Assembly: GCF_017654315.1 (NCBI RefSeq)
Contig: NZ_CP072203.1
Location: 4,464,001-4,528,000, forward strand
Length of the DNA stretch: 64,000 bases
Source of the DNA: Gordonia polyisoprenivorans
Lineage (GTDB): Bacteria > Actinomycetota > Actinomycetes > Mycobacteriales > Mycobacteriaceae
Direction: 5' to 3'
This document shows, one piece after another, positions 13,080 through 20,035 of the stretch (position 1 is the stretch's first letter; every line of letters begins with the position of its first letter). The translations under genes were made by a program, and so were the position numbers. Below the pieces are notes generated by a model that did no database searches, was not told the origin of the DNA, and saw only the letters and a list, made by a program, of their open reading frames with translations.

Positions 13080-13409
13080 TCAGTCCTCGTCCTCGTTCAT
13101 CGGGGGCAGTTGCTTGATGAAAGGCGGATCGAAATCGGTCTTGCCGACCTTGCTGGCACCGCCCGGCGAGCCGAGCTCGTCGAAGAAGTCGGCGTTGGCA
13201 CTGACGTACGGATCCCATTCGTCGGGGACGTCATCCTCGTAGAAGATGGCCTCCACCGGACACACCGGCTCGCAGGCACCACAGTCCACACATTCATCCG
13301 GCTGGATGTAGAGACTGCGACCACCTTCGTAGATGCAATCGACCGGGCATTCCTCCACACATGCCTTGTCCATCACATCCACGCAGGGTTCCGCGATGAT
13401 GTAGGTCAC
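13080..13409 (-). CDS. fdxC: 7Fe ferredoxin
   Basis: 109 aa low-potential electron carrier of the FdxA/FdxC type. Cluster ligands: C9, C17, C21 and C25 in the first half, then C40, C43, C46 and C50 in CVDCGACEPVCP. The Cys spacing of the first motif (CX7CX3CP) is that of [3Fe-4S]/[4Fe-4S] 7Fe ferredoxins, and the family's acidic C-terminal extension is present. The start is GTG (13409), preceded by AAAGGAG at good spacing. It may supply electrons to radical-SAM or P450 enzymes. The nearby CofG is a plausible but unproven client. Confidence 0.95.
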   Translation of the reverse strand: MTYIIAEPCVDVMDKACVEECPVDCIYEGGRSLYIQPDECVDCGACEPVCPVEAIFYEDDVPDEWDPYVSANADFFDELGSPGGASKVGKTDFDPPFIKQLPPMNEDED

Positions 13410-13769
13410 CACACACTCCTTTGCTGCAAGCACTTCGGGTCGGCCGCCGTCGTCCGGCCGGCCGAGATGTACGCGAGGGCTGGTCGCGCCGAACACGCAT
13501 GCAGCGGCAATCCGCAGCTCCACACCGCACACACGTGTCGTCCTAGAGTATCTGCCCACCAGCAGGCCCTCCCACACCCGCCCCTGCTCGCCGGCGGTCG
13601 TTGAGTCACAAATCACACCGAGACCCGGTTGCACCCAGGGTGAGGAGAACCCTCCCGCTCGCGCCGATGCCCGGCCACCCTGGTCGCGTGAGCACTCCAT
13701 CGAGGCGATGTCGCGGCCGTCACCGTATCCGGCGCACTCTCCCCTCGCCCCTCGTTCACAGGAGAACTC
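13410..13769 (+). promoter_or_regulatory. Divergent promoter region with a possible structured leader
   Basis: This 360-nt gene-free stretch separates fdxC (minus) from the cysteine dioxygenase gene (plus). On the plus strand an 8-bp perfect pairing, CCAGGGTG (13635-13642) with CACCCTGG (13676-13683), encloses a smaller GAGG/CCTC hairpin. The whole precedes the dioxygenase start by about 90 nt. It looks like a folded 5' leader, but it matches no riboswitch consensus I can recall (not SAM-I, SAM-IV, TPP or cobalamin). An AGGAG ribosome site lies just before the ATG. Confident promoter boxes could not be assigned. Confidence 0.4.
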
Positions 13770-14399
13770 ATGACCTCGACCCTGCCCTCCCGTACCCAGC
13801 CAACCCGTACGTACCGCCCGGACCGCTCCGCCCGCCACACCGCCGCCCACCTACCGACCCGGCTGCGTCCGGCCGACCTGCTGCGGATCACCGACCAGGG
13901 CGTCGCCGACGTCCTCGACGGACGATATGACCGCCTGCTGCCCGCAACCTGGGACCCGGTGGAACGGTGGTCGACCCGTCTGGAATCCGACGACGACCTC
14001 GACCTGTGGCTGATCAGCTGGACGCCGGACCGCTCCACCGACCTGCACGACCACGCCGGATCGCTCGGCGCCCTGACCGTCCTGAGCGGCGCACTGCGCG
14101 AATACCGCTGGACCGGAGACGATCTCGCGCTGCGCATCCTCTCGGCCGGTGATCAGGCCGCATTTCCTCTCGGCTGGGTCCACGACGTGCAGCACCACGG
14201 CAGCATCCCGCCCGCGCGTGGGCTCACCGCCCCGACGGGCGACACCTCCGTGCCCACTCCGAGCGTGGCCACTCCGAGTGGTCCGACGCTCAGCGTCCAC
14301 GCCTACTCCCCGCCGCTGACCGCGATGTCGTTCTACGAGGTCACCGACGGCGGCGCGCTCCGCCGGACCCGGACCGAACTGACCGACGAACCGGAGTAG
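13770..14399 (+). CDS. Cysteine dioxygenase-like cupin
   Basis: 209 aa cupin related to type I cysteine dioxygenases, which oxidise cysteine to cysteine sulfinate with non-haem Fe(II). The Fe ligands are visible: H93 and H95 in TDLHDHAGS, and H138 in GWVHDVQHHG. SVHAYSPPLTAMSFYEV supplies the conserved C-terminal strand. A low-complexity Thr/Pro/Ser insertion (about 155-172) sits in a loop. It is followed after 18 nt by a rhodanese gene, which supports a sulfur-catabolism unit. Thiol substrate (cysteine or 3-mercaptopropionate) cannot be told from sequence. Confidence 0.87.
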   Translation: MTSTLPSRTQPTRTYRPDRSARHTAAHLPTRLRPADLLRITDQGVADVLDGRYDRLLPATWDPVERWSTRLESDDDLDLWLISWTPDRSTDLHDHAGSLGALTVLSGALREYRWTGDDLALRILSAGDQAAFPLGWVHDVQHHGSIPPARGLTAPTGDTSVPTPSVATPSGPTLSVHAYSPPLTAMSFYEVTDGGALRRTRTELTDEPE

Positions 14400-14417: not shown

Positions 14418-14792
14418 ATGCCGATGACCATCGACGACATGCTCCTCGTCGCGCGGGAGTCCCTGCAACGACTGCCCGCCGAGGATCTCGACGCCGAACT
14501 CGCCGCCGGTGCCGTGCTCGTCGACATCCGGCCCGCCGCGCAACGCGCCGCCGAAGGGGAGGTTCCCGAGGCACTCGTCATCGAACGCAACGTCCTGGAA
14601 TGGCGATGCGATCCGGCCAGCGACGCGCGCATCACACAAGCCGTCGACCACGACGTACGGTGGATCATCCTGTGCTCGGAGGGATACACCTCGAGCCTGG
14701 CGGCGGCATCGTTGCAGCAGTTGGGATTACACCGGGCCACCGATGTCGTCGGGGGCTACCGGGCCCTCGCGGCGCACCACGATCGCCGGTGA
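14418..14792 (+). CDS. Rhodanese-domain sulfurtransferase
   Basis: 124 aa single rhodanese domain. LVDIRPAAQRAAEGEVPEAL is the substrate-side segment, and the active-site loop is CSEGYTSS with the persulfide-carrying Cys at 86. It probably moves sulfane sulfur in the cytoplasm. It is co-directional with the cysteine dioxygenase-like gene 18 nt upstream, so the two likely form one operon for cysteine/thiol sulfur turnover. It converges on cofG with an 11-nt gap. Confidence 0.9.
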   Translation: MPMTIDDMLLVARESLQRLPAEDLDAELAAGAVLVDIRPAAQRAAEGEVPEALVIERNVLEWRCDPASDARITQAVDHDVRWIILCSEGYTSSLAAASLQQLGLHRATDVVGGYRALAAHHDRR

Positions 14793-14803: not shown

Positions 14804-16048
14804 TCACGCCACCGCCGGCCACGTCCGGGGTGACGGAATCCGGTCGGCGGCCAGACCGCTGTCCGGATCGCTCAGGGCCGCCACGTGATCATGCAGTGCC
14901 GGATCGATCCACGACGACGCGTCGAGGATGTACGGCGGCTGCGCGGTGAGACGTTCGGTCAGGGTGAATCCGGCGCCGGCGGTGAGATCGGCGAGCACGT
15001 CGAGGTTGGGCCAGGGACGTTCGGGATTGACGTGATCGGGTGTCAACGGCGACACCCCGCCCCAGTCGTCGACGCCGGAGGCGATGAGTGCCTCGCACTC
15101 GGCTGCCGACACCAGGTTCGGCGGCGCCTGGATTCGCATGTGCGGACCGAGTACGATCCGCGCGGTCGCGACCGCGGCGAGGAATTCGGTCATCTCGGCG
15201 TCGGGGGTGCCGCGCATCGCGGTGTCCGGCTTGGCCCGGAAGTTCTGCACGATCACTTCCTGGATGTGCCCGCCCGCCGCGGCGATCTCGGCCATCGCGA
15301 GCAGCGATTGCGCTCTCTCGGTGAGACTTTCGCCGATGCCCACGAGTATTCCGGTGGTGAACGGAATCCCGACCGCACCCGCATCGCGCAACACCTGCAG
15401 CCGTACCAGCGGATCCTTGTCGGGGCTGCCGTAGTGAGGCATACCCTTCTCGGTGAACAGCCGGCGCGAGGTGGTTTCGAGCATCATGCCCATCGACGGG
15501 GCGACCGGACGCAGGGCGGTCATCTCCTCGGCGCTCATCACCCCCGGATTCAGGTGCGGCAACAGTCCCGTTTGTGACAGGACCGCGATCGCGGCGGCGC
15601 GGACGTAGTCCAGCGTGGAGGTGTAACCACGCTCGGCCAGCCATTGCGCGGCCTGCGGCCATCGATCCTCCGGGCGATCGCCGAGGGTGAACAGCGCTTC
15701 CTTACAACCGAGTTCGGCACCCTTGCGGGCGATGTCGACGACCTCGTCGAGTTCGAGGTACATCCCCGCACCGGCGCGCGCGAGCTTTCCCGGGATCGTC
15801 ACGAAGGTGCAGTAGTGGCAGCGGTCGCGGCACAGTTTGGTCAGCGGGATGAACACCTTGCGCGAGTAGGTGACCTGCCCGGTTCGTCCCGCGGCCGCGA
15901 GGCCCTCGTCGCGGAGATCGGCGGCGATCCGTTGCAGCGCATGCAGATCGGAGCCGGACGCCGACAACAGTGTGCTCACCACCTCGTCGTCGGTGACCTC
16001 GGCGCTCGTCGCGGCATCGAGTGCCGCGGCCATGCTCATGGATGCCAT
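14804..16048 (-). CDS. cofG: CofG, FO synthase radical SAM subunit
   Basis: 414 aa protein matching the N-terminal half of fused FbiC. The radical-SAM cluster motif is intact: C73, C77 and C80 in [76 protein letters not shown] and IQAPPNLV are all conserved. CofG closes the deazaflavin ring of FO, the F420 chromophore, on the adduct made by CofH. In most mycobacteria CofG and CofH are fused. Here CofG is a separate last gene, 6 nt after a Baeyer-Villiger-type monooxygenase and downstream of a CofH-like gene lacking its own cluster motif. Confidence 0.93.
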
Positions 16049-16054
16049 GGGTGC

Positions 16055-17560
16055 TCACTCCCCTCGTTCGCTGGTGGTGGCCGCTGACAATCGGGTGAGG
16101 AACGGCTCCGGCTCGAACGTGCCGTTGCGCTCTCGGAACGACAACGCCGTCCCCGGCCAGAGCAGTGTCAGCCGACCACTCTCGGGATCGACATACCAAC
16201 TGTCACAACCGGTCAACCACACCGTATCGGAACTCCGGTCGTCGATCTCCCGGGTGTAGGCGGCCTCGGCGTCGGCGGTGACCTCCAGTGCGGCCACCCC
16301 CGCCTCGGCCATGTGATCGAGAGCGCCGACGACGTAGTCGAGTTGCGTCTCGATCATGTAGATCGCCGAATTGTGGCCGAGGGCCGCATTCGGGCCGTCG
16401 AGCACGAACATGTTCGGGAAACCGGCGACCACGGTCGAGGCATAGGAGACCATGCCGTGTCGCCAGTGGTCGGCGAGCAACTCGCCGTCCCGGCCGTGCA
16501 CGCGCGTAGCGACCGGCGGTCGCGCCGCCTCGAAACCTGTTGCCATCACCAGGATGTCGAGATCGTGGCTGCCGCCACTGGCCGCCCGCGCCTTCGATTC
16601 GACCACCGACTCGAGGGCGCCGGGCTCGAAGACGACGTTCTCGCGCAACAGCGTCGGATAGAAATCGTCACTGAGAAGTATTCGTTTACAACCGATCTCG
16701 TAATCGGGGGTGAGTTCGGCCCGCAGCACCGGATCGGGGATCTGGGCGCGCAGGTGCGTCAGGGCCCGCGCCCGGATCTCGTCGATGTCGGGACGGCGGC
16801 GCAGCCGTTGCGCGAACGCGGCGTCGGCATTGCGCAACAGTTCGTTGCGATGTGCGGCCGCCCGCTGCGGGTCGACGAGCTCGGCCCGCTCGGCAGCGTC
16901 GAGGCGACGATCCTCGCGCGGCACGATGTAGGGCGGGGTGCGGCTGAAGATGACGAGTTCGGCGGCGCGCGCGGCCACATGCGGCACGATCTGGATCGCC
17001 GACGCCCCGGTGCCGACCACCCCGACCCGGGCGCCCGTCAGTTCGAGATCGGGCTCCCAGGCGGCCGTGTGGACCACGGTCCCCGGGAAATCGTCGAGGC
17101 CCTCGATGTCGGGGATTCTCGGCTCCGACAACCGGCCGACGGCCAGCAGCAGGATCCGGGCGGTCAGCGACTGCGCACCGTCGACTCCTTCGGTGACCAG
17201 ATGCCATCGATCGCTCTCGGCATCCCAGGTGGCACAGGTGAGTTCGCGGCCGAGGCGGATGTGGTCGGCCAGTCCTTCGTCGTGTACGAGCCGGTCGAGA
17301 TAGGCGCGGATCTCGGCGCCGGCGGGATAAATCGCCGACCAGTCGGCGGGGGGACGGAACGAGAACGAATAGAGGTGACCGGGGATGTCGCAGGCGATGC
17401 CTGGATAGATGTTGTCACGCCAGGTGCCGCCGACGGCGTCGGCGCGTTCGAGGACCACAAACGATTCCCTCGCGCGCCGCGCCAGATGCGTGGCCATGCC
17501 CAGCCCGGCGAATCCCGCCCCGACGATCGCGACGTCGACCTGGGGTGCGGCCGCGGTCAC
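16055..17560 (-). CDS. Baeyer-Villiger-type FAD monooxygenase
   Basis: 501 aa class B flavoprotein monooxygenase. First Rossmann motif VGAGFAGLG (13-21) binds FAD. VGGTWRDNIYPGIACD is the classic ArAE/BVMO segment. The BVMO fingerprint FPGTVVHTAAW (158-168) fits FXGXXXHXXXW exactly. A second Rossmann motif, VGVVGTGASAIQ, binds NADPH. It starts with GTG overlapping the stop of the CofH-like gene (GTGA) and ends 6 nt before cofG, so it is embedded in the FO-synthase locus. The substrate is unknown. Ketone oxidation is the family norm, but operon position suggests a role with a deazaflavin or an F420-linked metabolite. Confidence 0.92.
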   Translation of the reverse strand: MTAAAPQVDVAIVGAGFAGLGMATHLARRARESFVVLERADAVGGTWRDNIYPGIACDIPGHLYSFSFRPPADWSAIYPAGAEIRAYLDRLVHDEGLADHIRLGRELTCATWDAESDRWHLVTEGVDGAQSLTARILLLAVGRLSEPRIPDIEGLDDFPGTVVHTAAWEPDLELTGARVGVVGTGASAIQIVPHVAARAAELVIFSRTPPYIVPREDRRLDAAERAELVDPQRAAAHRNELLRNADAAFAQRLRRRPDIDEIRARALTHLRAQIPDPVLRAELTPDYEIGCKRILLSDDFYPTLLRENVVFEPGALESVVESKARAASGGSHDLDILVMATGFEAARPPVATRVHGRDGELLADHWRHGMVSYASTVVAGFPNMFVLDGPNAALGHNSAIYMIETQLDYVVGALDHMAEAGVAALEVTADAEAAYTREIDDRSSDTVWLTGCDSWYVDPESGRLTLLWPGTALSFRERNGTFEPEPFLTRLSAATTSERGE

Positions 17561-18684
17561 CGGCCTGCCCGGTGCAGGATCGGCTGGTCGCCGGGCTGCC
17601 GATAGGCGGTGGTCCGTTGGACCGGCGTGCGGCCGGCGCGTTCGGCGAATCCGGCGAGGCGCTCGGCGTCGAGGACGCGACCGGCCTCCGGGCCGGCCGA
17701 CGGCATCACGGTGCCGTCGAGCAGCATCCCGCCGATGTCGTCGACCCCGCCCCGCAACACCTCGTCGACGACGCCGGCGTCGAGCTTGGTCCAGGCGACC
17801 TGGATGTGGTCGAACCGGCCCAGGGTGAACAGCCTCGCCACGGCGTGAATCGCGCGGGTCTCACGGCGTGAGGCGCCGGCCATCGCGGCCGACCGCAGGT
17901 GGGGTGGGGTGTTGTCGGCGACCATCGGCATCAGGATGAGCTCACTGAACCCGCCTGTACGCGACTGGATCCCGGACAGCGTCCGCAGATGGGCAACGAC
18001 CTGGCCCGGCGTTTCGACATGCCCGTACAACACCGTCGCCGTCGAAAACAGTCCCGCCTCGTGCGCTGCGGTGATCACCTCGATCCATCGGTCGCGGGCG
18101 TGGTCGGCCCCGGGTGGTGCGAGGACGGCACGGACCTCGTCGTCGAGGATCTGCGCCGCGGTGCCCGGCACCGAGCCGAGTCCGGCAGCACGTGCTCGGC
18201 GGAGGAACTCCTCGACGTCGACGCCCAGCCGGGCGGCGGCGTCGCGGATCTCCGGCGGGCGAAAGGCGTGCAGATGGACCGGCGCCGCAGCGGTGATCCG
18301 CTCGATCAGGTTCAGGTACCCCTCGGCCGGGGCATCGGCGGGTAGTGGCCCCTGCATGCAGATCTCGGTCGCCCCGAGCTCGCGGGCCTCGACGACCAGA
18401 TCCTCCAGTGCCGGGTCGGTGGTCAGGCCTGCGGCCACGGCGGTGTCGAGATTGCGATTCACCACGAAGGTGAGGGCCTCGGGATCGGTGACCGCTCGGC
18501 GGGCCGCGTCGGCGTGCGCGCACAGCTCGTCGAGGAGATCACCGTCGGCGCCGAGCAGCGCGATCCACTCGTCGTCGGAGAGGTCGGCCGGCGTTCCCAC
18601 CGGGGCGGCGGACAACCGCTCCAGCGCCGCGGCGACCCGCTCGACGGGCGCCCGATGATCGGTCGCCCACGCGCGCAAAACCAT
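17557..18684 (-). CDS. CofH-like protein lacking the Fe-S cluster motif
   Basis: 375 aa protein aligning (from memory of FbiC) with the FbiC linker plus CofH domain. TFVVNRNL (72-79) is present, then ATEICMQG (105-112), PGTAAQILDDEVR, YGHVETP, RTGGFSEL, HIQVAWTKL and a RTPVQRTTAY ending. In true CofH, VVNRNINFTN is followed by CX3CX2C. Here about 20 residues (80-100) join NRNL directly to the next helix, with no Cys there. The [4Fe-4S]/SAM site is therefore gone while the barrel is otherwise kept. The reading frame is clean. It may be a scaffold, a substrate-binding pseudoenzyme, or an enzyme with new chemistry. Confidence 0.85.
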   Translation of the reverse strand: MVLRAWATDHRAPVERVAAALERLSAAPVGTPADLSDDEWIALLGADGDLLDELCAHADAARRAVTDPEALTFVVNRNLDTAVAAGLTTDPALEDLVVEARELGATEICMQGPLPADAPAEGYLNLIERITAAAPVHLHAFRPPEIRDAAARLGVDVEEFLRRARAAGLGSVPGTAAQILDDEVRAVLAPPGADHARDRWIEVITAAHEAGLFSTATVLYGHVETPGQVVAHLRTLSGIQSRTGGFSELILMPMVADNTPPHLRSAAMAGASRRETRAIHAVARLFTLGRFDHIQVAWTKLDAGVVDEVLRGGVDDIGGMLLDGTVMPSAGPEAGRVLDAERLAGFAERAGRTPVQRTTAYRQPGDQPILHRAGR

Positions 18685-18734: not shown

Positions 18735-19109
18735 TCAGGCGTCCGGGCGCGGCAGCCGTCCCGACCAGATGAGCGCCACCGGGATTCCGAGACCGAACAA
18801 GACCAGCATCAGCGTCGCGGGAACGGTGGTGCCGCCGAGATAGAGCACCACGTCGCCACCCGGACCGGTGAACGCCGCGACCAGTAGGACCAGAACCCAC
18901 GCGGCCAACGGCGCGAACCGCAGCGGTGACTCGGTCGTGCGCGCCGCCAGCCACAGCAATATCGCGTTGACCAGGCCGGCGACGAGGGCGACGACCGGAA
19001 CGGGCTGCCCCCAGAACCGCAGGTAGCAGAACGCCACCGATCCCAGCCCGACCACGACCCCGTCGACGATCAGCATCGCGAGGAGGAAGCGGTCGAGCGC
19101 GCGGGTCAC
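18735..19109 (-). CDS. Small four-helix membrane protein
   Basis: 124 aa with four predicted transmembrane helices (roughly 8-30, 37-57, 64-84 and 92-114) and a short basic/Pro tail. It is the positional equivalent of the Rv1171-type membrane protein downstream of mshB. The GTG start overlaps the mshB stop by GTGA. There are no catalytic motifs and its function is unknown. Persistent linkage to mshB in the order suggests a membrane role near mycothiol or cofactor biosynthesis, but that is inference. Confidence 0.85.
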   Translation of the reverse strand: MTRALDRFLLAMLIVDGVVVGLGSVAFCYLRFWGQPVPVVALVAGLVNAILLWLAARTTESPLRFAPLAAWVLVLLVAAFTGPGGDVVLYLGGTTVPATLMLVLFGLGIPVALIWSGRLPRPDA

Positions 19110-20035
19110 GGGTGCGCCTGCGCGGGACGGCGTTGCGGGGTGAACAGATCGTCGTTGCGTCGCGACGCCTCCGGTGCGGGGGTCGAGGCCCCCTCCGGTG
19201 CCGGGCTGCGCAGGATGAAGTGCTCGACGTCGAAGATCGGCTGAAGGATGTTGTTGGACAAGGCGTATTCGGTCCGCGACGGCGCCACCTTCACCTGGGT
19301 CGCGTGTGCGGCCAGGGCGTCGACCTTGCGCTGATACACCCCGCCGACGTCGATGGCGGTGGTGATCCGGTCGTCGGGGTAGCTGGGCAGTTCGTCCTCG
19401 AGCGGCATCCGCCAGCCGTCGGGAACGCGGTCGGCCGCCGCAGCGAGACCGGCACGCAGTGCACTCGCCTCGGTGACCGACTCGTACACCAGGTACTCGG
19501 TTCCGGTCCGCTCCGACGCGATCGGCACCGCGGCCACCGAGGCCTCGTGCACCGTCATGTGGTCGGGATGCCCGTAGGTGCCCGCGGTGTCGTAGGTGAC
19601 GACCACCTGCGGATCGAACTCGGCGATCTCGTCGGCCAGCGCCGCGACGACCGCGTCGAACGGGCCCTGCGCCAGCGCGCGCGGATGCTCTGCCGACGGC
19701 GTCCCGGCCATCCCGGAGTCGCGCCAGCGTCCGGCACCACCGAGGAATCGCGGGGCCAGCGGAGGCCGACCGGGCGGGGTGAGGGCCTCGAGCGCCCGGG
19801 TCAGTTCGAGGATGCGGTAGCCGCCGAGCTGATCGGCACCGCCGTCGGCGACCAGTTGCGCCCAGCGGTCGCCGATCACCTCACCCTCCTCACCCAGGGT
19901 GAAGGTCACCACGCGCACGTCGACACCCTCGTCGAGATACCGGGCGATGGTGCCGCCGGTCATGATGGTCTCGTCGTCGGGGTGGGCGTGCAGCAGCAGC
20001 AGTCGGCGTCCTGCCGACTCGAACGATGCGGTCAT
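19106..20035 (-). CDS. mshB: Mycothiol biosynthesis deacetylase MshB
   Basis: 309 aa LmbE/PIG-L-type zinc deacetylase. It removes acetate from GlcNAc-inositol in the mycothiol pathway. The zinc motif HAHPDDET spans 16-23 and the third ligand sits in YGHPDHMTVHEA. GEEGEVIGDRWAQLVAD and ANRLGGYR-like LGGYRILELTRAL are typical of MshB rather than Mca. A C-terminal extension (about 275-309) rich in Pro/Ala is variable. The ATG overlaps the stop of the lipoprotein gene (ATGA), tying mycothiol synthesis to the typA-lpqW unit. Confidence 0.95.
   Translation of the reverse strand: MTASFESAGRRLLLLHAHPDDETIMTGGTIARYLDEGVDVRVVTFTLGEEGEVIGDRWAQLVADGGADQLGGYRILELTRALEALTPPGRPPLAPRFLGGAGRWRDSGMAGTPSAEHPRALAQGPFDAVVAALADEIAEFDPQVVVTYDTAGTYGHPDHMTVHEASVAAVPIASERTGTEYLVYESVTEASALRAGLAAAADRVPDGWRMPLEDELPSYPDDRITTAIDVGGVYQRKVDALAAHATQVKVAPSRTEYALSNNILQPIFDVEHFILRSPAPEGASTPAPEASRRNDDLFTPQRRPAQAHP

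Follow-up and report, generated by a model that had tools for sequence, protein, structure and literature searches.

The 64,000-nucleotide stretch of Gordonia DNA analysed here (contig NZ_CP072203.1, positions 4,464,001 to 4,528,000; hereafter the window) carries on its minus strand a tight three-gene operon that encodes, in this order, a CofH-like protein devoid of the [4Fe-4S] cluster loop (CofH'), a Baeyer-Villiger-type flavin monooxygenase (FMO) and an intact CofG. Our comparison of 97 loci revealed the FMO in 57 of 57 loci with a cluster-less CofH and in none of the 40 loci with a cluster-bearing one. We estimate at roughly three in four the probability that the operon is a three-part synthase of FO (7,8-didemethyl-8-hydroxy-5-deazariboflavin), in which CofH' and the FMO took over the step of CofH, a radical S-adenosylmethionine (SAM) enzyme, while the role of CofG is unchanged. 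In many members of Gordonia, and in some actinobacteria outside the genus, a cluster-less relative standing beside a flavin monooxygenase seems to have taken the place of one of the two radical enzymes of FO synthesis, and the data suggest a second route to cofactor F420, so far undescribed within the open-licence literature searched.

The genes of the operon and their diagnostic segments are located in the window as follows.

17557..18684, minus strand: CofH', CofH-like protein without the [4Fe-4S] cluster loop, 375 aa; open frame, TIGR03551 283.2 bits, no CX3CX2C
18376..18450, minus strand: residues 79-103 of CofH', short Cys-free linker in place of the canonical CX3CX2C loop, by alignment
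17557..17560, minus strand: GTGA, 4-nt overlap of the CofH' stop (TGA) and the FMO start (GTG), by sequence inspection
16055..17560, minus strand: type I Baeyer-Villiger-type FMO, 501 aa; GTG start, two Rossmann motifs, F.G...H...W, D58/K292/R293
17387..17431, minus strand: GGTWRDNIYPGIACD, FMO residues 44-58, the last being the conserved Asp58 (57/57)
17057..17089, minus strand: Baeyer-Villiger fingerprint FPGTVVHTAAW, FMO residues 158-168; same motif in 14/14 relatives checked
14804..16048, minus strand: CofG, intact radical SAM enzyme, 414 aa; TIGR03550 452.8 bits, cut-off 213.35
15809..15832, minus strand: CX3CX2C of CofG, CRDRCHYC, residues 73-80; CX3CX2C in 14/14 relatives

The cluster-less CofH' and its monooxygenase partner

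An initial annotation, made from the letters of the window alone, had claimed that the CofH-like protein lacks its CX3CX2C motif, with about 20 residues including all three cysteines missing. Alignment bears out the loss of the motif from an open 375-aa frame, and the number was close: VNRN (residues 75-78) and GATE (residues 104-107) are spaced by 25 residues in CofH' versus 43 in a Gordonia FbiC, leaving 18 residues absent, all three cluster cysteines among them. The only cysteines of CofH' are Cys55 and Cys109, and no CX3CX2C can be formed. Across the 57 cluster-less proteins, reference columns 134-143, which hold the second and third cluster cysteines, are gaps in 51-57 sequences. CofH' scores 283.2 bits against the NCBIfam profile TIGR03551 (CofH equivalog domain; cut-off 374.1), with an alignment that starts at profile position 75, and 25.3 bits against PF04055 (radical SAM superfamily; cut-off 29.5), aligned from model position 31. 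Because both the cut-off and the motif tests fail, CofH' is not classifiable as CofH, although its genetic setting is that of a CofH, in an operon with CofG and in a genome with CofD/CofE. Nor is the operon an FbiC, a single fused gene with two CX3CX2C motifs, as its genes are split and only one motif is present.

The motif is absent in all 30 Gordonia CofH' proteins examined, the window's own included, each of them an open frame, and the CofH domain lacks it in 35/35 other Gordonia CofH' loci. Comparison with the nearest named relative, from G. polyisoprenivorans (93%), gave a ratio of nonsynonymous to synonymous substitution rates (dN/dS) of 0.21 (NG86) or 0.09 (YN00); the values were 0.09-0.23 against near relatives and 0.23-0.35 against distant ones (NG86 only, with dS near 1). 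The remainder of CofH' is under purifying selection. An assembly or sequencing error is rejected by the 30 motif-less Gordonia proteins and by these ratios. The 57 cluster-less sequences retain 61 of the 190 columns that are invariant in canonical CofH and lose 55. Among those retained are (in alignment numbering) Asn-Arg-Asn, His202, His204, Tyr283, His285, Gln358, Trp361 and Asp379; among those lost are the cluster loop, the GG pair (mostly changed to GP) and Glu243 (mostly changed to Gln). Some of these residues may touch SAM or the substrate.

The FMO passes the sequence tests for a type I Baeyer-Villiger monooxygenase (BVMO), since the fingerprint and two Rossmann motifs are found in the window and in 14/14 relatives checked. 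His164 and Trp168 are present in 57/57 sequences, as is Asp58, and Arg293 in 56/57 with one gap. Asp58 and Arg293 align with the Asp and Arg of cyclohexanone and steroid monooxygenases, residues which we take to be catalytic in those enzymes. The best PDB matches of the FMO are cyclohexanone, steroid and phenylacetone monooxygenases (7v8o, 4ap3, 1w4x), the best at only 258 bits. In a single Gordonia genome (G056, L046:7788-9238) the FMO gene is split over two frames by a frameshift or an assembly error; in none of the other 34 fetched loci does the best single FMO match end early.

The 57 cluster-less loci come from 55 distinct genomes, two Williamsia genomes having been fetched twice; because the loci are related, they do not count as independent observations. 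The 97 loci exclude the window itself, named loci not chosen for comparison and nine loci (L146-L154) from Williamsia and from G121, a genome of another genus; these nine carry only CofG or an old FbiC, three of them with a degenerate CofH half, CX3CX2C and no FMO. All 34 named loci found through CofH' alone had a cluster-less CofH part together with the FMO. A further test used 20 genomes flagged only by a low best CofH score, nine with fused-length frames and 11 as a check. All nine fused-length genomes proved cluster-less, and in each of them an open frame with the BVMO motif begins at the fused gene's stop codon. Among the other 11, CX3CX2C was found in ten, and one sequence is cut off before the motif; the FMO was seen in none of the 11 within the stretch read, several being short contigs (3-6 kb) on which a distant FMO could be missed.

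The CofH sequences of these 11 genomes are of several kinds. Five (G345, G351, G386, G401, G613) have only CofH-like proteins that are 32-36% identical to FbiC and carry CX3CX2C, as does a fragment in G668, and G620 combines one protein of this type with a broken FbiC bearing the motif. FbiC with CX3CX2C is split over frames in G237 and G311; in G403 a canonical FbiC is cut off by the contig end, and in G565 the cut-off leaves the motif region out of view. The CofH-like proteins of about 400 aa with CX3CX2C and 32-36% identity to FbiC (L160:2048-3121 of G613 (L190), L186 and L187-L189) occur in genomes with no high CofH score and are perhaps enzymes of the futalosine pathway.

The reverse test led to the same association. 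A set of 301 family genomes was scanned for the FMO: among the matches listed, 35 genomes have one with an identity of 51% or higher, each having only a low-scoring CofH, and the remaining 266 have none. The sole other genome of the 301 with a sub-cut-off CofH match of similar strength (G311, with its fragmentary FbiC) had no listed FMO match at or above 51% identity. A chance neighbourhood of the FMO is ruled out by the 57/57 versus 0/40 comparison, by the comparison of Gordonia loci given below and by the low-score test (9/9 versus 0/11). FMO-like genes at 45% identity are not tied to a cluster-less CofH: G200 has an intact FbiC and G303 only a weak TIGR03551 match. Comparison of distance matrices gave r values of 0.92-0.94 for all three gene pairs alike. 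As the FMO stands beside CofH' in every case, CofH' is better read as part of a replacement module than as the selected pseudoenzyme of the initial annotation; the preference for selection over decay was borne out by the dN/dS values, which had been called for as a check.

Distribution and origin of the module

Out of 59 Gordonia genomes, 36 carry the cluster-less CofH', 23 carry a fused FbiC scoring over the CofH cut-off and none carries both. Related strains with an intact CX3CX2C in the same gene, which the initial annotation had named as a refuting finding, were not seen, the 23 motif-bearing genomes having fused FbiC instead. The 58 genomes other than that of the window yielded 59 loci, one genome having two FbiC copies (35 CofH' and 24 FbiC loci). 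The order CofH'-FMO-CofG is found in 35/35 of these CofH' loci, as in the window, and the FMO in 0/24 of the FbiC loci. Two neighbouring genes anchor the locus.

19106..20035, minus strand: MshB-like PIG-L deacetylase (PF02585), upstream anchor; upstream in 59/59 fetched Gordonia loci
13080..13850, minus strand: ferredoxin-type open frame (Fer4), downstream anchor; downstream in 55/59 fetched Gordonia loci

Since loci of both types share the mshB-like gene upstream and the ferredoxin gene downstream, the CofH' and FbiC forms occupy one chromosomal place. The true ferredoxin gene is probably shorter than its open frame, at about 13080-13523. Genes for a cysteine dioxygenase-like protein and a rhodanese (window 13770-14399 and 14418-14792) lie convergent to the operon; they adjoin CofG in most, not all, Gordonia CofH' loci and occur in one of the 24 Gordonia FbiC loci (L062).

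Outside Gordonia, the CofH'-FMO pair is present in Williamsia, in G121 (55% CofH' identity) and in G. jinhuaensis, which the genome set assigns to a genus of its own. A fused CofG-CofH' without the second CX3CX2C, followed by the FMO, was found in Naasia lichenicola (Microbacteriaceae), and the same fusion with the FMO in three genomes from g30 and g28, two further genera of the family, as well as in nine from g60 (family f29) and g99 (family f39), genera of other families; these nine are the cluster-less genomes of the low-score test. In Naasia lichenicola an alpha/beta-hydrolase gene (L134:7149-8012) stands between the fused gene and the FMO; a BVMO with an esterase is a classic pairing. In L155 the gene next downstream of the FMO is CofC; L160 has a CofC-like gene near the FMO (101.1 bits, slightly below the cut-off of 105), and in L161 CofD is nearby. 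Within the genus g60, some species have a high-scoring CofH and others a low-scoring one, and six f29 genomes in which CofH scores low (G772, G786, G807 and G813 of g60, G690 and G945) are candidates for the same module that were left out of the counts. Outside Gordonia, the spread of the CofH'-FMO module is given for samples of 301, 394 and 294 genomes. In one record titled Kitasatospora arboriphila NRRL B-24581 (G331, L128), the contig positions of the CofH matches coincide with those in G158, a genome of the Williamsia group, and this assembly is probably mislabelled.

A CofH tree of 66 rows, which included 16 of the 35 CofH' and 12 of the 24 FbiC sequences of Gordonia, has a long, fully supported branch with the canonical CofH domains to one side of it, and in this tree the CofH' proteins of Gordonia are far from Gordonia's own FbiC; the program flags the meeting of long branches. 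A CofG tree of 61 rows, made by a quick method, groups the CofG of CofH'-bearing Gordonia and Williamsia within the family's native clade and the CofG of G121 with its own genus, while the fused CofG-CofH' genes form a separate branch. Judged from these trees, CofG is native and CofH' looks foreign. Because CofG is native and CofH' stands apart from canonical CofH, it appears that in Gordonia, Williamsia and G121 CofH was exchanged while CofG stayed. A local deletion from Gordonia's own FbiC, the origin assumed by the initial annotation, is not favoured, given the distance of CofH' from that FbiC in the CofH tree and the native CofG next to it.

Steps of the exchange can be seen in Williamsia. 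Three of its genomes (L146:7605-9860, L147:5634-7835, L148:6191-8392) keep an FbiC at the old place in which the CofH half is worn, VNRN and PGTAAEILDDEVR being lost and CEPGCRYC kept. This half shares 28-29% identity with CofH', and a fourth genome is alike by score; these genes are apparent decay intermediates. Five other Williamsia genomes have CofG alone at the old FbiC place, as does G121. The CofH'-FMO pair is located elsewhere in all nine genomes read (three and five of Williamsia, and G121).

The F420 pathway and the proposed chemistry

No second CofH or FbiC was found in the genome of the window (6.03 Mb, single contig), where the TIGR03551 matches are CofH' and two weak stretches of CofG only. 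All 12 PF04055 matches were identified: two mycofactocin maturases, MoaA, MiaB, HemW, BioB, LipA, RlmN, members of the MSMEG_0568 and Rv2578c families, CofG and CofH', the last two being the only CofG/CofH members among them. With the cluster motif gone and no second CofH/FbiC found, FO synthesis must be different or absent, as the initial annotation had made conditional on such a search. The F420 genes fbiA, fbiB and fgd that it proposed to look for are all present, as is CofE; FbiA/CofD and FbiB lie about 20 kb from the operon. CofD, CofE and Fgd score over their cut-offs in 59/59 Gordonia genomes, which thereby pass the gene test for an F420-producing actinobacterium; loss of the whole F420 pathway is ruled out by the same count.

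The radical SAM motif of CofG is intact and its TIGR03550 score lies well over the cut-off. Of the 207 columns invariant across 40 canonical CofG, the CofG proteins of cluster-less genomes (50 sequences) retain 140, and they have no newly fixed position. Because these columns are retained and no new ones are fixed, the CofG of cluster-less genomes very likely still accepts the CofH product. CofH' and the FMO would, with good probability, jointly make the compound that CofG needs.

Our tentative proposal for this step, which we hold at somewhat less than even odds, is a SAM-free second route to the CofH product. The FMO, dependent on NADPH and O2, would insert oxygen beside the carbonyl group of 4-hydroxyphenylpyruvate or 4-hydroxyphenylacetaldehyde, both derived from tyrosine, and a p-quinone methide (C7H6O) would arise from the resulting 4-hydroxybenzyl ester by expulsion of oxalate or formate. 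CofH', in which part of the old barrel and its polar residues survive, would hold 5-amino-6-ribitylaminouracil and steer its nucleophilic C5 onto the quinone methide. The adduct would be C16H22N4O7, the formula of the normal CofH product, formed with no radical and no SAM, and CofG would then close the ring to FO. The appeal of the quinone-methide proposal is that the adduct needs no redox change. The canonical CofH reaction removes iminoacetic acid and two hydrogens from the sum of tyrosine and the uracil, and from the known formulas of these compounds the arithmetic likewise gives C16H22N4O7. The course of the canonical reaction is described in PMC8498797.

Several points weigh against the three-part FO synthase. 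The substrate of the FMO is a guess; the BVMOs known so far act on ketones, and alpha-keto acids may simply decarboxylate with peroxides. The substrate of CofH' could have changed, since only a third of the canonical invariant columns are retained. An oxygen-sensitive enzyme would remain in the pathway, because CofG is still a radical SAM enzyme. CofC or CofD was recognised near the FMO in only three of the six loci with listed frames (L155, L160, L161), and the assembly of one Gordonia genome has a frameshift in the FMO gene (L046). Four Williamsia genomes (three of them read) have a degenerate CofH half with CX3CX2C alongside CofH'-FMO, so strict exclusivity is limited to Gordonia. Of the 22 non-Gordonia loci among the 57, eight were chosen for fetching on account of their FMO: L139, L140, L141 and L144 were found via the FMO only, the other four via CofH' as well. 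Finally, neither detection of FO or F420 in species with CofH' only nor biochemical data on such species were found in the open-licence literature searched, PMC11852219 included.

The order of events could also differ. A tyrosine-derived enol or imine might first be joined to 5-amino-6-ribitylaminouracil, the uracil perhaps having been oxidised beforehand by the FMO, after which the monooxygenase would clip the side chain, CofH' and the FMO still replacing CofH. The same genomic evidence applies to this order, which we consider possible but doubtful: the alpha/beta-hydrolase of Naasia would fit cleavage of an ester on a bound intermediate, but it occurs in one locus only, and no such intermediate is known. 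It is unlikely that CofG performs both radical reactions, with CofH' as a scaffold or binding subunit and the FMO in a side role. An intact CofG and the part of the barrel kept in CofH' would suit such a division of labour, but the absence of new near-invariant positions in CofG (50 versus 40 sequences) gives no sign of a second activity, and an FMO in 57/57 loci would not be expected. We regard as very unlikely that FO is no longer made, the operon producing another compound and FO or F420 being taken up from neighbours. That no direct F420 data for these species turned up in the open-licence literature agrees with uptake, but CofG is conserved and native, CofD, CofE and Fgd are found in every Gordonia genome of the set, and other lineages have CofC or CofD beside or near the fused CofG-CofH'-FMO genes. 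A pseudogene or an assembly artefact, for which nothing speaks except the missing motif itself, can be practically dismissed in view of the open frames in 30/30 genomes examined, dN/dS values of 0.09-0.35 and the same structure in several genera.

Comparison with known systems

If the three-part FO synthase is real, the CofH step could proceed with neither an Fe-S cluster nor SAM, which would be useful for F420 production in aerobic hosts, and enzymologists would gain a natural case of the radical SAM fold turned to other chemistry. Annotation by the CofH/FbiC cut-off would miss such F420 producers. If the proposed chemistry holds as well, a former radical enzyme would have been rebuilt as a non-radical enzyme forming C-C bonds, a reaction of a new kind for the fold.

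According to a 2021 review (PMC8498797), FO synthesis follows one universal mechanism in all F420 producers studied, carried out by two enzymes with SAM-radical domains; neither Gordonia nor Williamsia is named in its main text. The CofH' genomes break this rule of two radical SAM enzymes and yet keep the rest of the F420 pathway. In the open-licence literature no paper combines F420, FbiC and Gordonia, or F420 and p-quinone methide, and the two papers with both FbiC and Baeyer-Villiger deal, by title and abstract, with tuberculosis drug targets and resistance. Judged from the open-licence literature only, the route is new to print.

The C-terminal half of CofH/FbiC (TIGR03551; PRK09234) is homologous to CofH' over most of the domain, belongs to the same pathway and has the same chromosomal place in Gordonia, and the segments VNRN, GATE, PGT, YGH, TGGF and RTT are largely kept. 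In contrast to CofH/FbiC, CofH' has no CX3CX2C loop, its GG is mostly GP and its GTAAE mostly GTAAQ, its score lies below the cut-off, and the FMO accompanies it in every locus examined. Among solved structures, the nearest relative of CofH' is the aminodeoxyfutalosine synthase MqnE (PDB 6xi9; 86.8 bits, or 147.9 bits by profile), which, unlike CofH', is a genuine radical SAM enzyme of menaquinone synthesis. The pseudo-SAM/SPASM family of NCBIfam (TIGR04347), likened to CofH' by its family name alone, has a radical SAM fold without a working cluster, and we know of no link of cluster-less radical SAM relatives to F420 or to a monooxygenase. The type I BVMOs (7v8o, 4ap3, 1w4x) resemble the FMO in the Rossmann motifs, the fingerprint and the Asp/Arg pair; the FMO differs by its operon with CofH' and CofG. 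The takeover of a radical SAM step by an O2-using enzyme has precedents in HemF for HemN and in AcsF for BchE. In both of these cases the radical protein is simply replaced, whereas in the case of CofH' the cluster-less relative of the radical enzyme stays beside the monooxygenase.

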